From a virus: a stretch of DNA of 36,077 nucleotides. The position numbers and the translations under genes were made by a program. Location of the stretch: IMG/VR virus record IMGVR_UViG_3300028600_000012, positions 1 through 36,077 of that record; one strand, 5' to 3'. Below are positions 30,688 through 36,077 of the stretch, piece by piece (the first letter of the stretch is position 1; the number at the start of each line of letters is the position of its first letter). Under the pieces are notes generated by a model that saw only the letters and a program-made list of their open reading frames with translations, did not search any database and was not told the origin of the DNA.

Positions 30688-31086
30688 CTAGTTCACCGGC
30701 CCAAGCTGGAGTCGTTCCCGCTGCGTCATAGTCGCGCGCTGGTACTCCTCGAGAGCCGCCTTGGCGTCCTCGTCAACGACCGGGTGTGGCACGTAGCACT
30801 CTGGAGCTCGAACCGTGACCGACTGCGTGACCATCGGCCGGAGTGTTGCCAGATCAAAGGCCAGAGTCGACCCGCAGCAAGGACAATCGCCCCAGAACAG
30901 GTCTATATCGTACTCGGGCTGGTGGTCGAAGCGATGGCGCACCGTCCGCGCCTTGAACGTGGCCAGGTCCGCTTTATAGGCCTCGTGGCTGTCCTGGGTG
31001 CAGGTGTACTCGCAGGACCGACAAAGGCCCTTGCTTGTGAATCTGGAGCCTTTGCAGGCTTTGCATGTGTTCTTCGATTGGGGCAT
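30688..31086 (-). CDS. Double zinc-ribbon protein at head of recombination operon
   Basis: A 132-residue protein from ATG 31086. Cys pairs CKACKG, LCRSCEYTC and DCPCCGS suggest two zinc sites, at residues about 8-29 and 68-71. Between them lies a charged helix (KADLATFKARTVRHRF). It is the first gene after the divergent control region. It could bind nucleic acid or regulate. It has little Shine-Dalgarno, and the predicted transcription start is within a few bases of ATG. Confidence 0.6.
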   Translation of the reverse strand: MPQSKNTCKACKGSRFTSKGLCRSCEYTCTQDSHEAYKADLATFKARTVRHRFDHQPEYDIDLFWGDCPCCGSTLAFDLATLRPMVTQSVTVRAPECYVPHPVVDEDAKAALEEYQRATMTQRERLQLGPVN

Positions 31087-32616: not shown

Positions 32617-33294
32617 ATGGACTGGGAAAACGAAAGCTGGATTAAGCTTTATACCAGGGAGACAGGCGAGACCGTGGCCATGGGCTGGGAGGCTCGTGCT
32701 CTACTCCGAGAAATGCTCTGCAAGTGCGACCGGGCCGGGTTGATTCAGGTGGATAGCGACGAGGACTTGGCCGCGCTCGTACGTATGCCGTCACACGTTG
32801 TCACAGCATGTCACACGGTGTTACGCGAACGCGGGGTAGTGTCACGCACTGATCACGGGCTACTCGTGCACAACTTCATCGAGGCGCAAGAGGCACGCAC
32901 GTCTGACAAGGAAAGACAGCGTCGCAGCCGTGCACGCCGTAGAGATATCGCGAGGTTAGAGTCGGAAGATGTCACAGCCTGTCACACGGTGTCACAGCCT
33001 GTCACGAATAGAATAGATAAGAAGAGAATAGAAAAGAATAGAGAGGGTGCACGCAAGCGCGCCCACGCCCTCCCCGATTCCTGGAAGCCGACCGACAAGC
33101 ACGTCGCGAAGGCACTCGCCATCGGAGCCGACCTAGCCGAGGAGGTGGCAAGCTTCCGCGACCATCACCTGGCCAAGGGCTCGTCCATGAAGGACTGGGG
33201 GCGGGCGTTCAACACCTGGCTGCGGAACTCGGAAAAGTTCGCGACCGAGCGCAAGGCCAAGCAACCAACAGCACCGGAGATTAAGTGGCTATGA
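32617..33294 (+). CDS. Phage replication initiator / replisome organiser (O-like)
   Basis: A 225-residue protein. The N-terminal about 100 residues are a winged-helix-like DNA-binding region (WIKLYTRETGETVAMGWEAR, LIQVDSDEDLAALVRMPSHV, ERGVVSRTDHGLLVHNF). The middle is basic (RQRRSRARRRDIAR, NRIDKKRIEKNREG). The C-terminal region (LPDSWKPTDKHVAKALAIGA, KDWGRAFNTWLRN) is the usual helicase-loading end of replisome organisers. Two tandem 10-bp repeat blocks and an A-rich tract inside the gene support an internal origin. The stop overlaps the DnaB start (ATGA). Confidence 0.82.
   Translation: MDWENESWIKLYTRETGETVAMGWEARALLREMLCKCDRAGLIQVDSDEDLAALVRMPSHVVTACHTVLRERGVVSRTDHGLLVHNFIEAQEARTSDKERQRRSRARRRDIARLESEDVTACHTVSQPVTNRIDKKRIEKNREGARKRAHALPDSWKPTDKHVAKALAIGADLAEEVASFRDHHLAKGSSMKDWGRAFNTWLRNSEKFATERKAKQPTAPEIKWL
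32791..32830 (+). repeat. Iteron block 1 (four 10-bp units)
   Basis: Units TCACACGTTG, TCACAGCATG, TCACACGGTG and TTACGCGAAC follow each other without spacers. The 10-bp period places each unit on the same face of DNA. Inside the initiator gene; encodes part of VVTACHTVLRE. Confidence 0.85.
32971..33010 (+). repeat. Iteron block 2 (four 10-bp units)
   Basis: Units GTCACAGCCT, GTCACACGGT, GTCACAGCCT and GTCACGAATA, again in a perfect 10-bp register. Encodes VTACHTVSQPVT. The first and third units are identical. Confidence 0.9.
33004..33046 (+). other. A-rich, purine-rich tract next to iterons: candidate DNA unwinding element
   Basis: Directly after iteron block 2 comes a stretch built from GAATAGAATAGATAAGAAGA and similar, with very few C bases, in an otherwise GC-rich genome. 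This is the arrangement of lambda-type origins: iterons next to an easily melted A-rich region inside the initiator gene. Confidence 0.7.
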
Positions 33295-34634
33295 GCAAAG
33301 AATTCACAAGCGTCTCAGCCGAGGAGGCGGAATCCCGCATTATCGCGATCTGCGCCGAGAACCCAACCAAGCTAGATCTCGTGACCGCAGAGCCGGCTGA
33401 CTTTCTCAGCGTCAAGTGGCGTACCTGCTTCGAGGTCCTGCGCGACCTACAGGCCGAGTACGGGGACGGCGTCGATCCGCTGATCGTCTTCGACCGAGTC
33501 AAGGACCAGGCACAGGGTATCGAGCTCTCGGATTTGATTAACCCGGAAGCGACCCCGGTCATGATCGAGCGCTACTCCGAGATCGTGCGAGAGGAGGCTT
33601 CTAAGCGGCGGTTACGCCTTGGGTTGTCTGGGGTCCTCTATGAGTTAGAAAAGGGCGCCACGGCCTCGGAAGGGCTGTCTATGGCCTCACGAGCGATCAG
33701 TGACGCGACCCTGGGCACACCAGACTCTGCACAACTCATCGGCGACATCGTCAAAGAGCGGTTTTTAGAGCTCGCCGAGATAGCGGACAGGATCGCGAAG
33801 GGGGACCAGTCGGCGACCGGACTCACGACCGGGCATGAGAAGCTGGACGAGACCCTAGGTGGACTACAGCCTGGGATCGTGACCCTGCTCGCAGCTCGCC
33901 CAGCGATGGGGAAGTCACTGCTAGCGCTCTGCATCTCGAACGCGGTCTCCAAGACTTGTAATGGGGTTCACATTTTCTCGCTGGAGGACACCCGGGCCTC
34001 GTACGCCGATCGAGTTCTGTCCATGGGCAGCCAGGTCAACTCCAAGCTGATTCGCTCGTGCCAGATCAGCCAGGGGCAGCGCATCGACCTTCAGGGTGCA
34101 GCAGAGCGAATCATGAAACGGGACAACTGGCTGGTTGACGATCGCAGCGGCATCACAGCCGAGGAGGTGGTCAGGTGCGCACGCAGGAACCGAGACAAGA
34201 ACGGAACCAAGCTTGTGATTGTGGACTACATCCAGTTGGTACGTGGTGAACGTGGACAGGGCCCCAGGGACAGGATCAGTGAGGCCGTGAACTGCTTCGG
34301 CGATGCCGCTAAGGCTGACGGGATATCGTACTTGGTCTTGTCCCAACTCAACCGCAGCCTGGAGAGCCGAGACGACAAGCGGCCCTTGCTCAGCGACCTC
34401 AAGGAATCGGGCACGCTCGAGGAACGGGCTAAGGCCGTGATCATGCTCTACCGCCCAGCCGTGTATGGGGACAAGTACGCGAAGGGGCAGTACGCCGGGC
34501 GACAAATTAACGGGCAAGTTTCAGGGCAACCGATTCCCGAACATGTGATAGAAATGCATGTTAGGAAAAACTCTCAGGGGCAGACCGGGGCCGTACTCGG
34601 TACTTGGCTGCCGGAAAGGATGACGATCAAATGA
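33291..34634 (+). CDS. dnaB: DnaB-type replicative helicase
   Basis: A 447-residue protein from ATG 33291 (ATGA overlap). The N-terminal helical domain (about 1-110) is followed by a linker and a RecA-like ATPase: Walker A AARPAMGKS (about 201-209), DnaB-type FSLEDTRASYADRVLS, Walker B KLVIVDYIQL (about 300) and the downstream LVLSQLNRSLESRDDKRPLL, LSDLKESGTLEERAKAVIML. Normal length for phage DnaB helicases; no intein. It unwinds DNA ahead of the host or phage polymerase and is probably loaded by the initiator encoded just upstream. Its stop overlaps the next start. Confidence 0.93.
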   Translation: MSKEFTSVSAEEAESRIIAICAENPTKLDLVTAEPADFLSVKWRTCFEVLRDLQAEYGDGVDPLIVFDRVKDQAQGIELSDLINPEATPVMIERYSEIVREEASKRRLRLGLSGVLYELEKGATASEGLSMASRAISDATLGTPDSAQLIGDIVKERFLELAEIADRIAKGDQSATGLTTGHEKLDETLGGLQPGIVTLLAARPAMGKSLLALCISNAVSKTCNGVHIFSLEDTRASYADRVLSMGSQVNSKLIRSCQISQGQRIDLQGAAERIMKRDNWLVDDRSGITAEEVVRCARRNRDKNGTKLVIVDYIQLVRGERGQGPRDRISEAVNCFGDAAKADGISYLVLSQLNRSLESRDDKRPLLSDLKESGTLEERAKAVIMLYRPAVYGDKYAKGQYAGRQINGQVSGQPIPEHVIEMHVRKNSQGQTGAVLGTWLPERMTIK

Positions 34635-35871: not shown

Positions 35872-36077
35872 GCCGAGCGCAATACTGGACTACGACCGGG
35901 TACAGGTTTACGAGGACCAAGCGATCGAGGAATTGGGCGCGGCGCAGTGTTTTATGGCTTCGCATGTTAGCGCTGGACACGGATACGGAGACGGATACGG
36001 ATACGGATACGGATACGGATACGGAGATGGAAAAGGGTACGGATTCGGAGACGGAGACGGAGACGGAAACGGGTACG
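35864..36077 (+). CDS. Gly-rich hexamer-encoded repeat protein, 5' part (continues at position 72)
   Basis: ATG 35864 overlaps the upstream TAG. The first about 30 residues (MSRPSAILDYDRVQVYEDQA and on) are nearly identical to those of the protein at 494, and the rest enters the GGA-NAC repeat. The window ends inside a codon. After the 71-bp overlap is collapsed, the frame continues at 71/72 to 214 for about 118 residues in all. Two paralogous copies thus flank the small gene at 201-497. Function unknown. Confidence 0.8.
   Translation, partial: MSRPSAILDYDRVQVYEDQAIEELGAAQCFMASHVSAGHGYGDGYGYGYGYGYGDGKGYGFGDGDGDGNGY
35975..36077 (+). repeat. Hexanucleotide array A, 5' half
   Basis: GGA-NAC units from 35975 to the end of the window. 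From about 35983 they are identical to array B from about 643. They end inside the 71-bp terminal repeat. Confidence 0.95.
36007..36077. repeat. 71-bp direct terminal repeat (copy 2)
   Basis: Identical to 1-71; see the first copy. Also present at 661-731. Confidence 0.85.

Follow-up and report, generated by a model that had tools for sequence, protein, structure and literature searches.

Replication origins nested within the gene of their own initiator are already known in phages. The direct-repeat-rich regions of the rep genes of Tuc2009 and TP901-1 are reported to be bound by the initiator and to serve as the origin (PMC8965321). The annotation of Tuc2009 rep accordingly reads 'contains origin of replication' (ori2009), and the gene carries four CAACC units at 11 bp followed by a GGATAG/GATAAG-type tract. 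The same arrangement is found in pro11 of phage r1t, with four GGAACC units at 11 bp preceding a tract of this type. In SPP1, oriL lies in gene 38 and combines direct repeats with an AT-rich unwinding element, the repeats being bound by the gene product (PMC6316719), while the lambda ori in gene O is composed of four iterons, each an inverted repeat, and an AT-rich tract (PMC7466680).

The window analysed here, that is, the whole stretch of 36,077 nucleotides of IMG/VR record IMGVR_UViG_3300028600_000012, contains a comparable arrangement inside one gene, with the following features:

32617-33294, + strand: predicted initiator (replisome organiser) gene, product P0001 of 225 aa (PHROG and Pfam profiles, AlphaFold2 model)
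32790-32829, + strand: iteron block 1, exact GTCAC(A) at 32790, 32800 and 32810, degenerate GTTAC at 32820
32841-32845, + strand: isolated extra GTCAC, 51 bp past the start of block 1
32971-33010, + strand: iteron block 2, GTCAC at 32971, 32981, 32991 and 33001, exact 10-bp period
33006-33045, + strand: tract rich in A and in purines, putative DNA unwinding element (nearest-neighbour stability)
33291-34634, + strand: DnaB-type replicative helicase (PF03796, 6e-55; phrog_19, 2.2e-59)

Judged from the sequence, positions 32790-33045 very probably constitute a replication origin of the theta type, which is built from iterons and an unwinding element and lies within the gene for the initiator that would bind it. 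A probable origin inside the initiator gene had been proposed in an earlier note on this DNA, and the proposal is upheld here by codon-level constraint, by the signature of an unwinding element and by a broad comparison with other phages. The arrays are located 170-390 bp inside the gene, and their units are 10 bp long with a GTCAC core that is not palindromic. The units of block 1 are, in order, GTCACACGTT, GTCACAGCAT, GTCACACGGT and the degenerate GTTACGCGAA; those of block 2 are GTCACAGCCT, GTCACACGGT, GTCACAGCCT and GTCACGAATA. Hence the four tandem units previously ascribed to each block are all exact in block 2, whereas in block 1 three are exact and the fourth reads GTTAC. The gap between the blocks, given earlier as about 140 bases, measures 141 bp. 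The A-rich tract noted after the repeats, GAATAGAATAGATAAGAAGAGAATAGAAAAGAATAGAGA, covers 39 nt from within the fourth unit of block 2 to 33044 and forms the least stable window of the 36-kb record at both 30 bp and 40 bp (rank 0 of 36,047 and 36,037, respectively). On the protein level, block 1 supplies some of the codons for the predicted recognition helix (residues 59-71), block 2 encodes the start of a predicted disordered linker, and the tract also falls within linker codons.

The assignment of P0001 is based on profile searches and on a structure prediction. The protein matched the PHROG profiles phrog_1032 (replication initiation protein, 4.6e-12), phrog_4880 (replisome organizer, 1.3e-4) and phrog_10469 (2.5e-4), and phrog_1163 weakly (E 0.012). 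The Pfam matches to DnaT (PF17948, E 0.0022, 18.1 bits) and Phage_rep_org_N (PF09681, E 0.029, 14.8 bits) lie below the gathering cut-offs of 25 and 23.3 bits, respectively; L195, a relative in which TGTCAC recurs every 11 bp, passes the PF09681 cut-off with 148.6 bits. Since the single-sequence model was too poor, a model based on an alignment of 24 related sequences (A4) was used, with a mean pLDDT of 80. The model comprises (i) an N-terminal winged helix at about residues 20-87; (ii) a long basic helix at 97-118; (iii) a low-confidence, probably disordered linker at about 119-150; and (iv) a helical DnaT-like C-terminal domain at 160-215. The winged helix is of the CRP type at Z 7.8, a middling value for so common a fold, and its E-values against family profiles are only marginal. 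Foldseek comparison of the model with the PDB gave no match at E <= 0.001, and the profile of the relatives' alignment (A2) gave none against PDB sequences. The predicted fold, which is clear where the family profiles are marginal, places P0001 among the winged-helix replisome organisers, with a C-terminus resembling DnaT. The DnaB gene starts just before the initiator gene has ended, the two frames sharing 4 bp (33291-33294), and the initiator likely recruits this phage DnaB, with a presumed role in helicase loading.

The arrangement suggests the following mode of action. The N-terminal winged helices of initiator protomers would contact one iteron after the next, always from the same face of the DNA helix, and the bound protomers would build a nucleoprotein complex that strains and then opens the A-rich tract, whereupon the DnaT-like C-terminal domain could pass the DnaB of the phage to the strand exposed there. 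A loop of about 140 bp may bring the two blocks together, or they may act as main and auxiliary arrays; block 1 could provide auxiliary sites, a looping partner or autoregulation. As block 2 lies in codons of the disordered linker, an intragenic DNA site would burden the protein little, and the origin would be inherited along with its initiator.

When 2.9 million viral contigs were scanned for runs of three TGTCAC units placed 10 bp or 11 bp apart, at least about 120 stretches emerged for either spacing, against 34 for the reversed-motif control. Among the matches listed, arrays within frames of at least 100 aa lie on the coding strand in 20 of 20 and 39 of 39 clusters (2 of 6 for the control). 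Many of these frames, again among the matches listed, resemble winged-helix initiators, in which the array is located just past the basic helix and just ahead of a purine tract. Arrays of TGTCAC with a 10-bp period also occur outside any clear gene (L009, L096, L104, L105 and other clusters), several of them directly 5' of promoter-like TATGAT sequences; they may represent origins or operators of other replicons.

A comparative set was then assembled with similarity of the N-terminal protein sequence as the sole criterion. Its 96 loci, 80 from viruses and 16 from genomes, were reduced to 68 nonredundant genes; as the query alignment was made from three members, two of them originally found through their arrays, the set is unbiased only within this winged-helix class. 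An array was defined as a non-purine pentamer occurring at least three times at 10/11-bp phase. By this test 57 of the 68 genes carry an array and 11 do not, whereas synonymous shuffles gave 2.8 on average and 7 at most, and flanking segments gave none (0 of 124). The arrays lie 350-435 nt into the gene, mostly just 5' of a purine tract, and a lag scan showed peaks at one and two helix turns only. The pentamer is GTCAC in about half of the genes and of the GCAAC/AACGC type in most others, and relatives with other iteron words encode other residues at the same place. In three related initiators (L282, 1995-2783; L378, from 2501; L387, 1830-2831) other words occupy this position, TGCAACGA in a cyanophage and CGAACGC in the two others. 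The initiator gene of Mwe-JY25 has no array. The earlier note had made its claim depend on conservation of the repeats at the DNA level among initiator relatives; a check on distant relatives did not refute the claim. No close relative of P0001 or of the helicase was found in viral contigs, so that iteron turnover near this phage cannot be followed, and no near match of the replication module was found in plasmids.

These data also bear on the possibility that the arrays are an operator, to which the initiator or a repressor binds so as to silence its own operon, and take no part in the start of replication. A winged helix of the CRP type would suit such a function, as would the intergenic TGTCAC arrays, some of which directly precede promoter-like sequences. 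In the present phage, however, the array lies well inside the gene and adjoins the weakest duplex of the record; the order of array and purine tract recurs in most relatives and matches that of the intragenic origins reported for Tuc2009 and SPP1. We therefore regard a purely operator function as improbable and retain the reading of the locus as an origin.

Comparison of domain architectures indicates which part of the protein goes with the iterons. Evi, pAEv1818 and Marin have a common N-terminal winged helix and different C-termini, and both arrays are kept; Rac-SA53 YdaU, PPompW_EH2246 and Chris1 have the common C-terminus with another N-terminus and are without arrays. When the iteron class was mapped on the winged-helix tree, 13 changes were counted, compared with a mean of 20.6 and a minimum of 16 in 200 shuffles. 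The swaps, although few, point to the repeats going with the N-terminal winged helix and not with the C-terminal domain, and together with the tree they suggest that the N-terminal domain is the reader of the iterons. The literature searched did not show where the Rac origin oriJ lies with respect to ydaU, and oriJ plays no part in this argument.

The same comparison concerns a second alternative, in which the sites bind a host factor, such as actinobacterial MtrA or a PhoB-like protein, instead of the phage initiator. MtrA sites are GTCAC-like direct repeats, and PhoB-like sites are TGTCA repeats of 11 bp; the likeness to the present arrays is what speaks for this proposal. Yet the same arrays are found in phages or prophages of E. 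coli, Pseudomonas, Aeromonas and Burkholderiales, the iteron class tracks a phage domain, and the arrays are absent where that domain has been replaced. A host factor as the reader is thus very improbable, and binding by the phage initiator is the reading followed below.

The repeats were further examined for chance and codon choice. Within the whole 36-kb record the three-unit pattern occurs only in gene 32617-33294, and the reversed pattern is absent throughout. The gene contains eight GTCAC; no more than six arose in any of 2,000 trials in which its synonymous codons were shuffled, and in 20,000 back-translations with the codon usage of the phage the maximum was seven. None of the 20,000 synonymous recodings thus reached the observed count, which identifies the repeat as a feature of the DNA and not a protein motif. 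The triple of block 1 arose in 55 and the quadruple of block 2 in 21 of the 20,000 back-translations. The 10-bp period also moves the reading frame with every unit, which is not the behaviour of a simple protein repeat. In the Evi/Rac-like family, codons for the same residue with their third base in the GTCAC core are identical in 10 of 10, 9 of 9 and 8 of 8 cases, the lowest value being 8 of 9, while other same-residue codons agree at 40-51% in pairs except the closest ones; whole units are gained and lost (L004 compared with Evi, L034 compared with L004). That the repeat is a protein motif only resembling a DNA repeat, as VTACHTV, which does occur twice as the earlier note had said, and the recurrence of CH, VT and MS residues in relatives might suggest, is therefore scarcely credible, for the 10/11-bp period reads the same DNA as CH, VT and MS in turn, the repeat is lost on synonymous recoding, the core codons are frozen where others drift, and relatives with other iteron words encode other residues there.

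As for the remainder of the record, its ends (1-71 and 36007-36077) are identical, an exact overlap of 71 bp, so that the genome is probably complete at about 36,006 bp and circular or terminally redundant, although the overlap falls in a hexamer-repeat stretch and may be a repeat artefact. The collection classes the record as linear. Long GGAGAC/GGATAC hexamer arrays are present at 3-187, 605-931 and 35975-36077. Nine large frames in the presumed structural region (1914-23760), one of 1137 aa, had no PHROG match at E 0.001, which indicates an unusually divergent phage. In the circularised sequence the detrended cumulative GC skew has its minimum at 30915, about 2 kb from the proposed origin, but this is weak evidence for an origin, as the minimum also marks a divergent promoter region.

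Beyond this phage, we lean slightly towards the view that a general plan for replication origins exists among tailed phages, those of Lactococcus as well as those of E. coli, Pseudomonas and Burkholderiales, in which phased short iterons in the linker codons of winged-helix initiators are followed by a purine unwinding tract. The iteron words would then make up a recognition code that varies with the winged helix, TGTCAC being the most frequent of them, and in the present gene one array would encode its own presumed reader helix. The regularity and spread of the plan go beyond a single case. No description of it as a general plan was found in the literature searched, which was thin in subscription journals and older phage work, and the pattern may be partly known already. 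With this signature, in which a pentamer recurs every 10-11 bp across the linker codons of the initiator and a meltable purine tract follows, origins can be placed in uncharacterised phages from sequence alone, and the natural pairs of winged helix and iteron word offer material for working out a recognition code.

There are several similarities and differences between the present locus and the known systems. A lambda-type ori with an O protein was considered and rejected: no O-family match was obtained in Pfam or PHROG, and the units are non-palindromic and 10 bp long. Lambda iterons are about 20 bp long. The locus resembles the lambda ori in having iterons and an AT-rich tract within the initiator gene; lambda differs in its initiator family, its longer inverted-repeat iterons and its separate loader P. 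Consequently, of the earlier proposal of an O-like initiator directly upstream of DnaB on the lambda plan, the initiator, the adjoining DnaB and the intragenic iterons with their tract are retained, and the O-family relationship and iterons of the lambda type are not. SPP1 oriL, by its published description, is similar in placing repeats and an unwinding element inside the gene of their own binder, but SPP1 has a separate loader, gp39, and a second origin, oriR.

The Evi and Rac-like 'primosomal protein I' genes, Marin and pAEv1818 likewise carry two blocks of GTCAC units. The first is located in the winged-helix part; the second lies in the linker and is followed by a GATAAAGATACAGAT-type tract, as in the present gene. 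Their spacing is a mixture of 10 and 11 bp, whereas it is exactly 10 bp here, and their block 1 encodes the loop ahead of the recognition helix, in contrast to the recognition helix itself in P0001. These arrays are not annotated as origins.

The closest precedents for 32790-33045 are Tuc2009 rep and r1t pro11. In these genes, as here, short direct repeats one helix turn apart lie inside the initiator gene and adjoin an A-rich purine tract, in the order seen for block 2. Short, contiguous and phased units, presented earlier as a departure from lambda, are indeed present, yet they are not peculiar to this phage, given the four 11-bp units of r1t and Tuc2009. Neither is such phasing universal among intragenic origins, as TP901-1 rep, with its reported origin, has no 10/11-bp run by the array test. 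Tuc2009 Rep and P0001 both match phrog_10469, and the r1t initiator shares with P0001 the match to phrog_1163, weak for the latter. The differences relate to the period (11 bp compared with 10 bp here), the repeat word (GGAACC or CAACC compared with GTCAC), the number of blocks (one compared with two), the C-terminal domains (Phg_2220_C and Rep_Org_C in the two phages) and, for r1t, the neighbouring gene, which encodes a DnaC-like loader where the present phage has DnaB. What this locus has in common with the Tuc2009/r1t type is the combination of intragenic phased repeats, an adjoining meltable tract, and an initiator with predicted winged-helix and helicase-loading-type domains.
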